In this document: piece after piece, positions 17,772 to 51,698 of the stretch
Position numbering within the stretch: position 1 is the first letter of the stretch
How the letters are laid out: each line of letters opens with the position of its first letter
Assembly (NCBI RefSeq): GCF_003970865.1
Contig: NZ_RXLZ01000019.1
Span: forward strand, 1 to 64,000
DNA: 64,000 nt
Direction of reading: 5' to 3'
DNA from: Stenotrophomonas maltophilia
GTDB lineage: Bacteria > Pseudomonadota > Gammaproteobacteria > Xanthomonadales > Xanthomonadaceae
The notes under the pieces: model-generated
What the model was told of the DNA's origin: nothing
The model's input: only the letters and a program-made list of their open reading frames with translations
The model's database searches: none
Position numbers and translations under genes: made by a program

Positions 17772-18458
<687 letters not shown>

Positions 18459-18498: not shown

Positions 18499-18581
18499 AA
18501 AGCCAAAGCCAAAGCCAAAGCCAAAGCCAAAGCCAAAGCCAAAGCCAAAGCCAAAGCCAAAGCCAAAGCCAAAGCCAAAGC
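18499..18581. repeat. Hexanucleotide tandem repeat (AAAGCC)n, about 14 copies
   Basis: Perfect uninterrupted AAAGCC units fill 83 bp, 40 bp after the msrA stop. The tract abuts structured repeat A on its tail side through GCCAAAGCG, the same junction seen at 50305-50313 beside element C. The + frame would read (Lys-Ala)n, but no plausible gene surrounds it. It is expected to vary in copy number by slippage. Confidence 0.95.
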
Positions 18582-18602: not shown

Positions 18603-18788
18603 GGGTGGGGCGGTGTGGGTTGGCAGGACACGCCGTAAACCCCGCTCCGCGGTCCGGCCCAGCCGCTGGCGGCTGTGCGTTCGGGCGCTTGCGAAGCAGT
18701 GCTTCGCAAGCAAAGCGCCCTCACCCCTGGGGGCTCGATGGCGCCATCCATGGCGCCAACGGTCCTGCCAACCCACACCGCCCCACCC
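18603..18788 (-). repeat. Structured long-stem repeat, element A
   Basis: A perfect 27-bp inverted repeat (arms 18603-18629 and 18762-18788, core GGGTTGGCAGGAC) encloses a 132-bp GC-rich interior with its own hairpins: GCGCTTGCGAAGC/GCTTCGCAAGC around 18690-18715, and GGCGCC/GGCGCC with loop ATGGAT (minus strand) near 18741-18758. The head-side flank (minus strand) reads GGAAACTGTCGGGGG, as in element B. The tail side leads into the AAAGCC tract. It lacks the ACANGGACGU core of the other copies, so it is a divergent member. Confidence 0.85.
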
Positions 18789-18848
18789 CCGACAGTTTCC
18801 CGGTGACGGTGGGCGAGAGCATTGGTTACTGACGAACTGAAGAAAAAC

Positions 18849-18880
18849 AAAAAGGACGCGGCGTTCGCCGCGTCCTTTTT
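18849..18880. terminator. Bidirectional rho-independent terminator
   Basis: A ten-base-pair GC stem (GGACGCGGCG / CGCCGCGTCC) with a tiny loop is flanked by A5 on the left and T5 on the right, so it can terminate transcripts from msrA (plus) and from the tal side (minus). It lies between structured repeats A and B. Confidence 0.92.
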
Positions 18881-18912
18881 GTTTGGTTCTGCATTGCCCT
18901 TGTAGAGCCGAA

Positions 18913-18981
18913 GGCAGCGGCAGGAGCCGCTGCCAACGTCGCTTGCGACGGCCCGGAGGGTGCCGGTCAGGACGACCGGCA
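18913..18981 (+). other. Hairpins with AGGA loops
   Basis: Three perfect hairpins in a row. 18913-18934 has a 9-bp stem with the four-base loop AGGA. 18937-18950 has stem CGTCGC/GCGACG. 18961-18981 has stem TGCCGGTC/GACCGGCA with loop AGGAC. Loop-exposed GGA is the hallmark of CsrA/RsmA-binding RNAs. A degenerate SMAG-like unit (GTAGAGCCGA and CATGCTCGGCT) surrounds them. No gene is visible here. Confidence 0.7.
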
Positions 18982-19074
18982 TAGTCATGCTCGGCTGCGA
19001 GCAAGCGAAGCGTGCGACCCGCTGTTGCTCTTCTTTCTTTCTTCCGTGGCGGGCGGCCACCGGAAACTGTCGAA

Positions 19075-19257
19075 GGCAGGGTGGGTAGGCCGCGCAGGGG
19101 CGTGAGCCGCATGGGCCCGAGGCATGCCTCGGGCGGGTTGGGCAGGACGCCCAACCCCGGTCTTGCCGTGTGCGCAGGACAGCGCACACGAGCAAGCGGC
19201 GACCGAGCTTACAGGGACGTACTTGCAGCGTCCCCTGCACGGCCTACCCACCCTGCC
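19075..19257 (+). repeat. Structured long-stem repeat, element B
   Basis: Outer arms 19075-19102 and 19229-19257 pair over ~27 bp with one mismatch and one bulge. Inside lie GAGCCGCATGG, a 20-bp palindrome (19115-19134), hairpins with loops AGGAC (19135-19157) and AGGACA (19167-19190), then GCGGCGACCGAGCTTACAG and the motif ACAGGGACGT (19211-19220). That motif fits the RsmE/CsrA consensus ACANGGANGU. GGGACG/CGTCCC offers an alternative local hairpin at 19214-19234. The head flank is GGAAACTGTCGAAGG. The interior is identical over 96 bp to element C. Confidence 0.88.
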
Positions 19258-19324: not shown

Positions 19325-20281
19325 TCACAGTTCCGAACGAATGCGCTCGCGCAGCGCCTGCAGATCCTTGGCAAACGCATCGATACCGGTCGCCAGCTTC
19401 TCGGTGGCCATCGGATCGGCCGCCAGGTCGGCGGCGAACTTCGCCGCATCGATCGGGGTCACCGCCGCGCCATCGGCCGCACCGGCCACCAGCTTGCGCG
19501 GCAGCTCGCCGTGGTCGGCGTCCAGCTTCTCCAGCAGGTCCGGCGAAATCGTCAGGCGGTCGCAGCCGGCCAGAGCTTCGATCTGCGCGGTCGAACGGAA
19601 CGAGGCGCCCATCACCACCGTCGGCGAACCGCGGCGCTTGAATTCGGCATACACGCCACGCACGAACTTCACGCCCGGGTCTTCGTCGATGCTGGCCGGG
19701 GCCTGGCCGTTGGCCACGTACCAGTCCAGGATGCGGCCGACGAACGGCGAGATCAGGAACGCGCCGGCTTCGCTGCAGGCCAGCGCCTGGGTCGGGTTGA
19801 AGATCAGGGTCAGGTTGCAGTCGATGCCTTCGGCCTGCAGGATGCGCGCGGCTTCCACGCCTTCCCAGGTCGCAGCGATCTTGATCAGGATCTTCTCGCG
19901 CGGCACGCCGGCGTCGGCGTACATCTGGATGAACTGGCGGGCCTTGGCCACGGTGGCGGCGGTGTCGTGGGCCTGGTCGGCATCCACTTCGGTGGACACG
20001 CGGCCCGGCACCAGCGTGCTCAGCAGCGCGCCGACGCCGATGGTCAGGCGGTCGGCCGCGGCATGCACCACGGCTTCGCGGTCGCCACTCTGCTGGCGGC
20101 CCCAGGCCAGTTCGCGTTCGATCAGCTCGGCGTAGACCGGCAGGTCCAGCGCCTTCTTCACCAGGGTCGGATTGGTGGTGCAGTCCACCGGCTGCAGGCG
20201 CTTGATCGCCTCGTAGTCACCGGTATCGGCAACGACCACGGACAGTTCGCGCAGCTGGGACAGTTTGGACGGGGTACTCAT
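19325..20281 (-). CDS. tal: Transaldolase (TalB type)
   Basis: Transfers a dihydroxyacetone unit between sedoheptulose 7-phosphate and glyceraldehyde 3-phosphate in the non-oxidative pentose phosphate pathway. At 318 residues it is the TalB-size class. The Schiff-base lysine is Lys134 in [11 protein letters not shown], and CTTNPTL (residues 34-40) is the N-terminal signature. It lies on the minus strand downstream of rnk (50 bp). Its 3' end faces the repeat-rich region. Confidence 0.96.
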
Positions 20282-29804: not shown

Positions 29805-29907
29805 CATCCACGCATGGCGTGGATCTACTGGGAACCGACCTCGTTCGTTTTTCGCCGAATGCGGATGTCCGTCGGCGCTGCAGTAGATCCACGCAATGCG
29901 TGGATGA
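29805..29907. repeat. SMAG pair, ATCCACGC type
   Basis: 29805-29828 (ends CTAC) and 29883-29907 (begins GTAG) share the stem ATCCACGC/GCGTGGAT. They lie head to head with a 54-bp spacer between the convergent genes ending at 29797 and 29911. Confidence 0.9.
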
Positions 29908-48385: not shown

Positions 48386-49660
48386 ATGGAACCTTTGGAT
48401 ACGCTCAACCTGTGGATGGAGCGCGCGCGGGATCGCGCACGGGCCATCAGTTTCGGCCGCTTCCTGTGGCATCGCTTCCTCGACGACCGCCTGTTCCAGG
48501 CAGCGGCGGCGCTGGCGTACACCACGGTGTTCGCGCTGGTGCCGCTGGCCATCGTGGTGTTCGGCGTGCTCTCGGCCTTCCCTGTCTTCGACCGCTGGAG
48601 CGACCAGCTCAGCGATTACGTCTTCTCCAACTTCGTGCCCAATGCCGCGCGCGCGGCAGAGGGCTACCTGCGGCAGTTCTCGGCCAGTGCCGGCCAGCTC
48701 ACCGCCGCCGGCTTCATCGCGCTGGTGGTATCGCTGCTGATCACCCTCAACAGCGTTGAAGAGACCTTCAACCAGATCTGGCGGGTCGGCTCGACCCGGC
48801 CCAAGCTGACCCGCTTCCTGGTCTACTGGACCGTGCTGACCCTGGGCGCGATGCTCGCTGCCGCTTCGCTGGCGGTGTCGGCGCGGGTGTTTGCGATGCC
48901 ACTGTTCGGGACCCAGGAAGGCCGTTGGCTGGCCGAGTTCGCGCTGCGGCTGGCGCCGATCCTGATCGAGTTCGTCTGCATCACGCTGATGTTCCGGGTG
49001 GTGCCGCACCACACCGTGAAATGGCGGCACGCGGTGCCCGGCGCGATTCTCGCGGCGGTCATCCTGGAACTGGTGAAGTGGGGCATCGGCGCTTACCTGG
49101 GCAGTTTCCAGTCCTACCAGAAGCTCTACGGCACGGTCGCCTTCGTGCCGATCCTGCTGCTGTGGATCTACCTGTGCTGGGTGGCGGTGCTGCTGGGCGC
49201 GTCGCTGTCCTCGTCGATGGCGGCCTTCCGCTACCAGCCGGTGGAACTGCGCCTGCCGCAGGGCTACGAGTTCTATGGCCTGCTGCGCCTGCTCGGCCGC
49301 TTCCACCATGCCCGAGCCAAGGGCAAGGGCCTGGCCGATGATGAAATCCTGCGGCTGGAGCCGATGCTGACCGATTCGCTGCTGCAGGACCTGGCCTGCA
49401 ACCTGCAGGAGATCGGCCTGCTGCGCCGCGATGAACGCGGCGAATGGCTGCTCTCGCGCGACCTGGACCAGGTGAGCCTGGCCGATCTGTACGAATGTAC
49501 CCAGTTGCGCATTCCGGTAGCCGAGCAGCATCTGCCATACCGCGACGACACACTGGGCCGTGCTGCGCTGGCAGCACTGGACGATCTGCGGCTGCCCCTG
49601 CGCGAACGCCTCAAGCGCAAGGTCAGCGATATCTACACCGATTCCGGAGACATGCCATGA
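48386..49660 (+). CDS. YihY/virulence factor BrkB family membrane protein
   Basis: A 424-residue inner-membrane protein with six helices (about residues 30-280), formerly named RNase BN in error. AAALAYTTVFALVPLAIVVFGVLSAF is the signature, with KLYGTVAFVPILLLWIYLCW at the end of the membrane part. The C-terminal 150 residues are a soluble winged-helix-like domain. ATG 48386 was chosen; it is divergent from wrbA. The stop overlaps the next start (ATGA). Confidence 0.88.
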   Translation: MEPLDTLNLWMERARDRARAISFGRFLWHRFLDDRLFQAAAALAYTTVFALVPLAIVVFGVLSAFPVFDRWSDQLSDYVFSNFVPNAARAAEGYLRQFSASAGQLTAAGFIALVVSLLITLNSVEETFNQIWRVGSTRPKLTRFLVYWTVLTLGAMLAAASLAVSARVFAMPLFGTQEGRWLAEFALRLAPILIEFVCITLMFRVVPHHTVKWRHAVPGAILAAVILELVKWGIGAYLGSFQSYQKLYGTVAFVPILLLWIYLCWVAVLLGASLSSSMAAFRYQPVELRLPQGYEFYGLLRLLGRFHHARAKGKGLADDEILRLEPMLTDSLLQDLACNLQEIGLLRRDERGEWLLSRDLDQVSLADLYECTQLRIPVAEQHLPYRDDTLGRAALAALDDLRLPLRERLKRKVSDIYTDSGDMP

Positions 49661-50226
49661 CCCGCAAGACCCCATTGCTGCTCCCGCTGGCCCTGCTGCT
49701 GGGGCTGTCGGCCTGCAAGCCGGCCCAGGAGCCGACCCCCGCCAGCAGCCAGCCACCGGCACAGGCACCGACGCCGACCGCACCGGCACCGGTCGAAGAG
49801 ACCCCGGCCGAACGCACCACCGCCGAGTTCCCGACGCTGAAGATGAAGGCAGTGGATGGCAGCGACTACGACCTGGCCGCGCACCGCGGCAAGTGGGTGA
49901 TCGTGAATTTCTGGGCGACCTGGTGTGCACCGTGCCGCAAGGAGATGCCGGAGCTGTCGGCGCTGCACGCGATGCGCAGCAACATCGAGGTGGTCGGCCT
50001 GGCCTATGAGGATATCGAGGTGCCGGAGATGCAGTCGTTCCTGACCAAGCATCCGGTGACCTATCCGATCGTGATCGTGGATCCGTTCGATCCGCCGGCG
50101 GACTTCGCCACGCCGCGCGGTTTGCCGCTGACGCACCTGCTGGATCCGCAGGGCAAGCTGGCACACACCTTCCTCGGCCCGGTGACGGCCGCCGACATCG
50201 AAAAGCAGATCGCGGCTGCCAAGTAA
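49657..50226 (+). CDS. TlpA-like thioredoxin lipoprotein
   Basis: A 189-residue lipoprotein: lipobox LSAC with Cys20, a Pro/Ala linker to about 55, then a TlpA/ResA-type thioredoxin domain with WCAPC (Cys90, Cys93). Likely a periplasmic thiol reductase for cytochrome maturation or protein repair. The stop codon of the preceding YihY gene overlaps its ATG, so both are in one operon. The 3' end faces the repeat-rich region with elements C and D. Confidence 0.9.
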   Translation: MTRKTPLLLPLALLLGLSACKPAQEPTPASSQPPAQAPTPTAPAPVEETPAERTTAEFPTLKMKAVDGSDYDLAAHRGKWVIVNFWATWCAPCRKEMPELSALHAMRSNIEVVGLAYEDIEVPEMQSFLTKHPVTYPIVIVDPFDPPADFATPRGLPLTHLLDPQGKLAHTFLGPVTAADIEKQIAAAK

Positions 50227-50275: not shown

Positions 50276-50311
50276 GCAACGGCAACGGCAACGGCAACAG
50301 CAACAGCCAAA
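50276..50311. repeat. Hexanucleotide tract beside element C
   Basis: Six units: GCAACG three times, GCAACA twice, GCCAAA once, then GCG. The last unit is the same as the one repeated at 18499-18581, and the junction GCCAAAGCG is shared, so this is the short counterpart of that tract on the tail side of element C. Confidence 0.85.
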
Positions 50312-50332
50312 GCGCGATTTCCGTGTGGTGGC

Positions 50333-50526
50333 GGGGCGGTGCCGGAGTGCGGGGACGCCGCAAGTACGTCCCTGTAGCAACTGTGTTGATGGAGGGGCTT
50401 GGCAGCCGCTTGCTCGTGTGCGCTGTCCTGCGCACACGGCAAGACCGGGGTTGGGCGTCCTGCCCAACCCGCCCGAGGCATGCCTCGGGCCCATGCGGCT
50501 GACACCCCGCACTCCGACACCGCCCC
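50333..50526 (-). repeat. Structured long-stem repeat, element C
   Basis: Arms 50333-50354 and 50505-50526 (GGGGCGGTGCCGGAGTGC...) pair 21 of 22 bp; the exception is a G-U wobble in the minus-strand RNA. Read on the minus strand, the interior has the 96 bases identical to element B (50405-50500), including the palindrome (50471-50490) and AGGAC and AGGACA loops, then ACAGGGACGT (50366-50375). The tail side leads to the hexanucleotide tract, and the head side carries the CTGTC motif at 50533-50540 as its complement. Confidence 0.88.
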
Positions 50527-50551: not shown

Positions 50552-50641
50552 GTAGATCCACGCCATGCGTGGATGAATCTCAATCGGAATCGAATATTTC
50601 GCATTGAAATCGAAATGCATCCACGCATGGCGTGGATCTAC
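50552..50641. repeat. SMAG dimer between elements C and D
   Basis: 50552-50576 (begins GTAG) and 50618-50641 (ends CTAC) share the stem ATCCACGC/GCGTGGAT with a 41-bp AT-richer spacer. They can pair as a long stem. Confidence 0.9.
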
Positions 50642-50653
50642 AGAATGCAATGC

Positions 50654-50777
50654 CGACAGATCGCGGAGATCTGTCGAAGGCGGGGTGGGTCCGGTTGCGG
50701 GGGCGTGAGCCGCATGGATGCGGCGACCGAGCTTACATGGACGTACTTGCAGCGCCCCCCGCAACCGGACCCACCCC
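50654..50777 (+). repeat. Structured long-stem repeat, element D (minimal copy)
   Basis: A 9-bp hairpin with loop GCGGA (50654-50676) precedes outer arms 50682-50705 and 50753-50777 (24 bp, one bulged C). Inside is only GCCGC-ATGGAT-GCGGC (50709-50724), then GAGCTTACATGGACGTACTT, whose ACATGGACGT (50735-50744) fits the RsmE/CsrA consensus. This is the shortest copy and defines the conserved core. A GCAACA-type tract follows at 50796-50825. Confidence 0.88.
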
Positions 50778-50795
50778 GGCTACCCACAGGTAACC

Positions 50796-50825
50796 CGCTT
50801 CTGCTTCGGCTGTTGCTGTTGCTGT
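50796..50825. repeat. Hexanucleotide tract beside element D
   Basis: Read on the minus strand: ACA, GCAACA, GCAACA, GCCGAA, GCAGAAGCG. The unit type and its decay toward the junction mirror the tract beside element C. Confidence 0.75.
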
Positions 50826-50902
50826 AACGGCGCGCGATAAATCGACCGCCGCTGGTGAGATAAACGATGGGCCACCAATGTTGCGCCCAGCGGAATGAAA
50901 TT

Positions 50903-50936: not shown

Positions 50937-51698
50937 CTACCAGGTCGTGTAGATCAGCTCCCGCCGCTGAACAGCCTGGCGGCCGATGGTGTAGCGGATT
51001 GGCACTACCCGGTCCTTGAACTGACTGAAGACTTCCCGCATGGCCGGGTGGTCGTTGATCGTCAGGATGGCTGAGCCGCGCAGCCCTGCCATCTGACGGG
51101 CCAGCTCCTGGTACTGGTCCATGCCAAAGGGAGCGCCGTACCCCTCGGTCTCCCAGTACGGCGGATCGAGGAAGAACAGGCTGTCGGCGGCATCGTATTT
51201 GGCCACGCACTGCTGCCAGGACAGGTGCTCGACGGTGACCTTATGAAGCCGGAGGTGCGCAGCACTCAAATCCTCCTCAATCCGCAGCAGGTTGAGGCCC
51301 TTGCCGCCCCGGCCGAAACCGGGGGTCTGGCCAGTCGCCTTGCCACCCCATGCCAGTCGCTGCAGGTAATAGAAGCGTGCGGCACGTTGGATGTCGGTCA
51401 GGGTGTCCGGGTGCTGGAGCTGGCACCATCGGAACATCTCGCGGCTCGTCAGCGCCCATTTGAACTGGCGGACGAACTCTTCCAGGTGGTTGGCCACTAC
51501 CCGATACAAGCGCACCAGCTCGCCGTGGCAGTCGTTTAGGACTTCAGCCCTGGCCGGCTCCCTGGCGAACAGCAGAGCAGCGCCACCAGCGAATGCCTCG
51601 ACATAGGTGCGGTGGGGGTTCTCGGCCACCAGGGGCAGCAGGTGCGGCAGTAGGCGGGTCTTCCCGCCCGGCCAGGGAAACAGCGTTGTGGTCTTCAT
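50937..51698 (-). CDS. Prophage DNA adenine methylase (Dam family)
   Basis: A 253-residue SAM-dependent N6-adenine methyltransferase. EAFAGGAAL (34-42) is the SAM-binding FxGxG-like motif and FLDPPYW (DPPY at 178-181) the catalytic site. The N-terminal KTTTLFPWPGGKTRLLPHLL is the Dam/phage signature. It is the last gene of the prophage late operon. It may protect phage DNA from host restriction or modify host gene expression. The recognition site is unknown. Confidence 0.9.
   Translation of the reverse strand: MKTTTLFPWPGGKTRLLPHLLPLVAENPHRTYVEAFAGGAALLFAREPARAEVLNDCHGELVRLYRVVANHLEEFVRQFKWALTSREMFRWCQLQHPDTLTDIQRAARFYYLQRLAWGGKATGQTPGFGRGGKGLNLLRIEEDLSAAHLRLHKVTVEHLSWQQCVAKYDAADSLFFLDPPYWETEGYGAPFGMDQYQELARQMAGLRGSAILTINDHPAMREVFSQFKDRVVPIRYTIGRQAVQRRELIYTTW

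Follow-up and report, generated by a model that had tools for sequence, protein, structure and literature searches.

Two pairs of long-stem repeats between convergent genes

The window analysed here, a 64,000-nt stretch of a Stenotrophomonas maltophilia contig, contains four long-stem repeats (A, B, C and D) that lie as two pairs, each between convergent genes: A and B between an msrA-type peptide methionine sulfoxide reductase gene and the transaldolase gene tal, and C and D between a thioredoxin/redoxin-type gene and a gene for a D12-class adenine methyltransferase (Table 1). As A and C are on the minus strand and B and D on the plus strand, each pair is head-to-head, and at both loci each flanking gene reads its nearest copy antisense. 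The inverted arms pair at 27 of 27 (A), 25 of 26 (B), 21 of 22 (C) and 23 of 23 (D) positions, and the fold energies lie 10.0, 9.4, 10.1 and 7.8 standard deviations, respectively, below those of dinucleotide shuffles, with none of 200 shuffles folding as well as the copy in any of the four cases. A, B, C and D are genuine non-random inverted-repeat elements, as an earlier note on this DNA had claimed. That note also described arms that differ completely between copies yet each pair with their own partner; the pairing holds in all four copies, whereas the difference is confined to the inner halves, the outer half being common to A and C and to B and D.

Table 1 Features of the two loci in the window
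Feature	Position	Strand	Description and basis
Peptide methionine sulfoxide reductase gene (msrA-type)	17772–18458		Flanks A/B; Pfam
A, hexanucleotide tail	18499–18581	−	(AAAGCC)n on the plus strand; sequence
A	18603–18788	−	Nested insert in second hairpin; arms, fold, hairpin scan
A, first loop ATGGAT	18746–18751	−	Intact; hairpin scan
T-tailed palindrome, intrinsic-terminator-like	18845–18884	.	Bidirectional; between heads of A and B
AGGA/AGGAC hairpin segment	18907–18981	+	In 4 of 17 aligned orthologous spacers
B	19075–19257	+	Nested insert in first hairpin; arms, fold
B, nested-insert hairpin, loop AGGAC	19135–19157	+	Fold; variants in other copies
B, nested-insert hairpin, loop AGGACA	19167–19190	+	Fold; variants in other copies
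B, second loop AGGGAC	19213–19218	+	Sequence
Transaldolase gene tal	19325–20281		Flanks A/B; Pfam
Thioredoxin/redoxin-type gene	49657–50226		Flanks C/D; Pfam
C, hexanucleotide tail	50276–50313	−	Inverted-repeat/sequence inspection
C	50333–50526	−	Nested insert in first hairpin, extra bases before second; arms, fold, sequence
C, motif ACAGGGACGT	50368–50373 (loop)	−	Sequence
REP dimer, presumably SMAG-type (GTAG)	50552–50641	.	Inverted repeat in spacer between C and D
D, head palindrome GACAGAT..ATCTGTC	50655–50675	+	Sequence; similar heads upstream of further copies
D, intact element	50679–50780	+	25-bp outer stem, 52-nt core, two ANGGAN hairpins; arms, fold
D, first loop ATGGAT	50714–50719	+	Sequence, hairpin scan
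D, second loop ATGGAC	50737–50742	+	Sequence
D, hexanucleotide-type tail	50797–50825	+	GCNGTT-like; sequence
D12-class adenine methyltransferase gene	50937–51698		Flanks C/D; Pfam

D matches the family model R1 at 112 bits (E = 2.4 × 10−21, window search) and gives the plan of the element, which from 5′ to 3′ comprises a head palindrome, the outer stem, a core, the returning outer stem, ~20 nt and a hexanucleotide tail, often followed by one more hairpin adjoining the gene end. The structure first delimited as D is real, but its 5′ part is the head palindrome, and the element proper spans 50679–50780. Both of its ANGGAN loops are C-G closed, and the GGA of the second follows that of the first by 20 nt. 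A, B and C are further copies of this element, each interrupted within a hairpin by a nested insert of ~80 nt; in A the insert splits the second hairpin, which reads CCCCANGGANGGG in other copies of the A type. The sequence agrees with the earlier report of ACA(G/T)GGACGT in B (19211–19220, plus strand), C (50366–50375, minus strand) and D (50735–50744, plus strand), the motif being absent from A, and with that of hexanucleotide tails in three of the four copies (A, C and D, not B). Variable hexanucleotide repeats form the tail 3′ of many further copies as well. Hairpins with a six-base ANGGAN loop (at least five Watson–Crick pairs) are rare, accounting for 2 of the 334 six-base-loop hairpins on both strands of the window, both being first hairpins, one in D and one in A. 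Rfam searched at curated cut-offs gave no match within the window.

The insert common to B and C adds hairpins with AGGAC and AGGACA loops, variants of which occur in other copies. Two unrelated ~80-nt inserts interrupt a GGA loop immediately behind its A-N-G-G, one of them in the first hairpin and the other in the second (for example, window 19115–19195 and 50410–50490, L340, L343 and others), and insertion into the GGA loops is apparently site-specific. The AGGA and AGGAC hairpins of segment 18907–18981, to which the earlier note had drawn attention, are real, but as the segment occurs in 4 of 17 orthologous spacers they do not belong to the conserved element; this 70–80-nt segment, missing from the other orthologous spacers, is possibly a small insertion cassette. 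Of 17 aligned orthologs, 16 retain the palindrome that separates the two heads at the A/B locus, its plus strand also being recovered in a scan of the A/B region. A consensus scan, itself weak evidence, found no sigma-70-like promoter in either the A/B or the C/D region. Among orthologs of the C/D locus, L314 lacks the elements while both gene ends keep GCAGGGC-type hairpins; this empty site does not fix the ends of any mobile unit, because spacers and tails differ. In two others, L304 and L306, two arm types stand in swapped left/right order, which suggests inversion between head-to-head copies. We take the REP dimer between C and D, and a further one at window 29805–29906, to be SMAG-type. 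The GTAG tag of SMAG palindromes is described in PMC3733652.

A dispersed family with covarying structure

A BLAST search with 50640–50830 returned 125 matching pieces in the same genome (hereafter the own genome), with about 40–45 at the top of the list being separate copies and many of those lower down single arms. R1 gave 105 matches there, at 103 separate places, 97 of which score at least 50 bits; 103 is a lower bound because 150 of 4,471 first-look candidates were scored and insert-bearing copies score low. A core pattern matched at least 109 stretches in named genomes, and the matches listed were all titled Stenotrophomonas or [Pseudomonas] hibiscicola.

From 105 distinct 102-mers, 70 were aligned without gaps after near-duplicates and out-of-register rows had been dropped. 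Pairing was kept in 98.7% of the 2,520 pair cells of these 70 copies, 27 of the 36 pairs had changed on both sides, and sliding the partners by 1–3 columns reduced pairing to only 41–46%. An absence of significant covariation, which the earlier note had named as evidence against the family, did not arise: none of 500 shuffles scored as high on any of five pairing measures. The family is dispersed, covaries in structure and has near-invariant loops, and the pair counts against shuffles and slides, together with the double changes, bear out the proposal that its structure is kept by selection. Unaided, RNAalifold recovered the named outer stem together with its two hairpins, arranged as a three-way junction, and added pairs 26–51 and 27–50; it also paired 36–41 inside loop 1, which reduces this loop to a UGGA tetraloop, and supported hairpin 2 by 53–55/73–75 in place of the 51–53/68–70 of the named structure. 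Single-sequence folding of D likewise paired the A and U of loop 1, again giving a UGGA tetraloop in place of an open hexaloop.

The family extends well beyond the genus. In searches with stricter filters than that of the own genome, R1 matched 74 of 247 genomes (18 of 54 genera) in the family, 75 of 299 genomes in the order and 68 of 369 genomes (60 of 271 genera) in the class (gamma-proteobacteria). At least three genomes of the same genus had no match in the family search. The matches listed outside the genus were nearly all full length, and those printed share the core but have unrelated arms.

CsrA-type loops and the probable folded strand

Elements from other genera and families were used to assess loop conservation; these numbered 39, being the 43 printed minus L268 (same genus), L253 (a near copy of L252) and L284 and L297 (other length). 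All 78 of their loops read ANGGAN and all 78 are C-G closed, with loop positions 2 and 6 varying freely, although the 39 are among the best model hits, which favours conserved copies in such counts. At Stenotrophomonas loci, where the 138 distinct copies had been pre-picked so that the first loop departed from ANGGAN by no more than one change, both loops were ANGGAN in 133 and both closures C-G in all 138; loop 1 was ATGGAT in 134 and loop 2 often AGGGAC or AAGGAC.

All 78 loops and closures of the 39 elements, and both loops of 133 of the 138 Stenotrophomonas copies, fit the CANGGANG pattern of CsrA/RsmA sites, which in sequence bears out the CsrA/RsmE-type loops of the earlier note. Hexaloops of the form CANGGANG are reported in PMC4894983, with a best intersite distance of 18 nt, as against 20 nt from GGA to GGA in the element, and the RsmE consensus is given as A/UCANGGANGU/A in PMC6849547; the freedom at loop positions 2 and 6 agrees with both.

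Substitutions in the stems were used to ask which strand folds. On a given strand a C:G transition leads equally to G-U or A-C, and pairing on that strand favours G-U. The outer arms of the 39 elements held 19 G-U against 2 A-C (one-sided P = 1.1 × 10−4), and Stenotrophomonas copies, with events counted within clusters of at least three, held 31 against 15 (one-sided P = 0.013; 28 versus 12 in the outer stem and 3 versus 3 in the inner stems). This bias suggests that folding takes place on the strand with the GGA loops. As G-T is likewise favoured over A-C when DNA is single-stranded, the test is no proof of RNA.

CsrA (PF02599) was found in 313 of the 369 genomes of the same class draw, own genome included. 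Among good-quality genomes (at least 90% complete, at most 5% contaminated), it was present in 56 of 57 with the element versus 224 of 257 without (P = 0.0097), a comparison that is uncorrected for genome size and hence weak support; across all 369 genomes, the difference was not significant (63 of 68 versus 250 of 301, P = 0.06). Five element-positive genomes had no CsrA match (G479, G539, G570, G665 and G811), four of them less than 90% complete, leaving G665 as the one of good quality.

Relationship to TwoAYGGAY and other known elements

The closest known relative is TwoAYGGAY (RF01731), which PMC2864571 lists as probably an RNA of non-cis-regulatory type, with occurrences in human gut, gamma-proteobacteria and Clostridiales, and which is predicted to bind CsrA (PMC4333381). 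The two share an architecture in which a long outer stem of low conservation encloses two hairpins with GGA in their loops, and in bridging genomes core letters around GACCGTC..GTCGAGCG are shared; the present element differs in that its loops are ANGGAN rather than strictly AYGGAY, its second hairpin is shorter, and it occurs in ~100 copies with head-to-head pairs. RF01731 itself gave no match on D (E up to 10) and matched 1 of 11 distant loci (35.3 bits, E up to 1). In the own genome, with 118 of 263 candidates scored, it found at least six places at 31–39 bits, below its gathering cut-off of 43, and all six are also R1 places. Of ten genomes searched, five had no match at all, whereas G655 had 12 places, 11 of them above the cut-off; R1 matched all 11 fetched G655 places that passed the RF01731 cut-off (57–69 bits), and G655 cores share letters with those of Stenotrophomonas type. 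We conclude that the element and TwoAYGGAY form one superfamily, with the Stenotrophomonas copies as divergent members below the Rfam cut-off. The family is thus not of a new kind: the TwoAYGGAY motif and its predicted CsrA binding are already known, and what the present analysis adds is the high copy number, the head-to-head pairing and the conserved place beside tal. Dispersal, covariation, loops and strand bias nevertheless uphold the dispersed CsrA-type family that the note proposed. A literature search, mostly outside subscription journals, returned no paper describing these repeats in Stenotrophomonas.

CsrB, CsrC and RsmX/Y/Z are dedicated RNA genes, each with many sites. The element resembles these sponge RNAs in presenting GGA in hairpin loops (PMC4333381) and differs from them as a dispersed two-site repeat; the consensus scan of the two window loci gave no sigma-70-like promoter. 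RsmU (sRX061), an RsmA-sequestering RNA from a 3′ UTR of the related genus Xanthomonas, binds RsmA, as the element is predicted to do, but is one RNA, described in PMC7694677 as restricted to that genus. When its four predicted GGA motifs were changed, RsmA was still reported to bind, with an altered band position (PMC7694677); binding in this bacterial family therefore need not hinge on GGA loops. REP/SMAG GTAG palindromes and BIMEs are likewise extragenic, of high copy number and often head-to-head (PMC3733652). In contrast to these, the element is longer and has conserved internal loops, the SMAG-type dimers being separate and in spacers, and the printed copies carry no GTAG end but a CTGTC-type head and hexanucleotide tails.

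The model of the Yersinia sRNA Ysr224 (RF02770), among the most prevalent annotated sRNAs (PMC9029176), resembles the reverse complement of the element core and thus lies on the opposite strand, without the GGA loops; in ten genomes no match exceeded its gathering cut-off of 70 bits (best, 51.3), and sub-threshold matches also occurred in 5 of 14 control genomes. Matches to microRNA families at permissive E-values reflect the long stems and were set aside, as was sX9 (RF02228) as a possible expressed relative, for which the own genome gave one weak match (E = 0.89) and no connection with the element was seen. G207, G064 and G118 each have more than 100 sX9 matches (E up to 1), so this RNA is a repeat in its own right.

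Genomic placement

In the own genome, all 22 match pairs no more than 600 nt apart are head-to-head, with gaps of 135–270 nt. Exceptions elsewhere are same-strand neighbours at G098:C3 and G537:C321, and one named locus is a triple with two same-strand copies. With gaps classed by our own gene caller, and with 22 own-genome and 26 named-set elements omitted because they lie at contig ends or are otherwise unplaced, the share of convergent gaps in the own genome was 18 of 40 where an element was present and 15 of 100 where none was (P = 0.0003), the corresponding shares at named loci being 20 of 67 and 50 of 322 (P = 0.008; loci of related strains are not independent). Divergent gaps were under-represented (4 of 40 versus 27 of 100 and 6 of 67 versus 74 of 322, respectively). 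Lone copies between co-directional genes had no orientation bias (antisense/sense, 6/5 in the own genome and 13/12 at named loci), so a sense 3′-UTR role as a general rule is unsupported; the bidirectional terminator separating the heads of A and B also argues against a simple role of that sort. Among the best 30 of 41 genomes searched, 22 had at least one R1 match beside tal, where the element thus behaves like a resident, and in these tal-side copies stems change in a compensated way while loops stay mostly constant. At the C/D locus, 15 of 30 genomes had an R1 match.

Possible functions of the element

We lean, by little more than an even chance, towards the explanation that the copies are a repeated RNA-like element of TwoAYGGAY type that acts as distributed RsmA-binding sites, as predicted from the loops. 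The GGA strand would be transcribed and would fold so that a long outer stem encloses two hairpins whose ANGGAN loops are C-G closed, and the two GGAs, 20 nt apart, would be laid out to suit one CsrA/RsmA dimer. RsmA would then bind the GGA-strand element, and the ~100 copies, often near gene 3′ ends, may titrate or recruit it. The nested inserts of B and C bring further AGGA-type hairpins, which we count in favour of this explanation. Counting against it are the antisense reading by the neighbouring genes, the terminator separating A from B, the lack of a sigma-70-like promoter in the consensus scan, the absent orientation bias of lone copies and the folding of loop 1 as a tetraloop. That the spacer from the msrA-type gene to tal might instead contain a single CsrB-like sRNA gene, made up of the AGGA hairpins and B, seems very improbable: several GGA hairpins do fall within ~370 nt, but the AGGA segment is confined to 4 of 17 orthologs and no promoter matched.

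A more serious rival, though in our judgement still an unlikely one, is a REP/BIME-like non-autonomous DNA element, whose hairpins would be substrates of a transposase or recombinase on single-stranded DNA, with the loops as recognition signal. The ~100 dispersed copies (many at contig ends), the uniformly head-to-head close pairs of the own genome, the SMAG-type palindromes in spacers and the arm types swapped between L304 and L306 would all be accommodated, whereas the retention of a match beside tal in most of the genomes compared, and the agreement of the free loop positions 2 and 6 with CsrA sites, speak against it. We give still less credence to a structural 3′-end device, in which the stem on either strand would block exonucleases or polymerase at convergent gene ends. 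It would explain the enrichment in convergent gaps, the strong stems on both strands and the weak matches of the opposite-strand Ysr224 model at the same places, but it has no need of two conserved ANGGAN loops at fixed spacing; moreover, TTTT within 12 nt past the 3′ arm was found in none of the 167 listed hairpins (four of which look like non-members), and the copies are thus not intrinsic terminators.

Should distributed RsmA binding apply more widely, Xanthomonadaceae and many gamma-proteobacteria may carry a distributed RsmA/CsrA sponge, either in addition to a few CsrB-like genes or in their place, an extension that we regard as speculative and on balance doubtful. Such a sponge would consist of tens to ~100 two-site RNA elements, often in head-to-head pairs at gene ends, the copies multiplying as repeats while natural selection would hold loops, spacing and stems. 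In Xanthomonas, rsmB homologs had not been identified and an undiscovered mechanism was considered likely, according to PMC3937308; the sponge, if it exists, would supply the missing RsmA counter-regulator of Stenotrophomonas. With two CsrA-type sites in each copy, the element would offer a testable answer for the wider family, would give an orphan RNA motif a function, and would exemplify a regulator with binding sites that spread through the genome as repeats.
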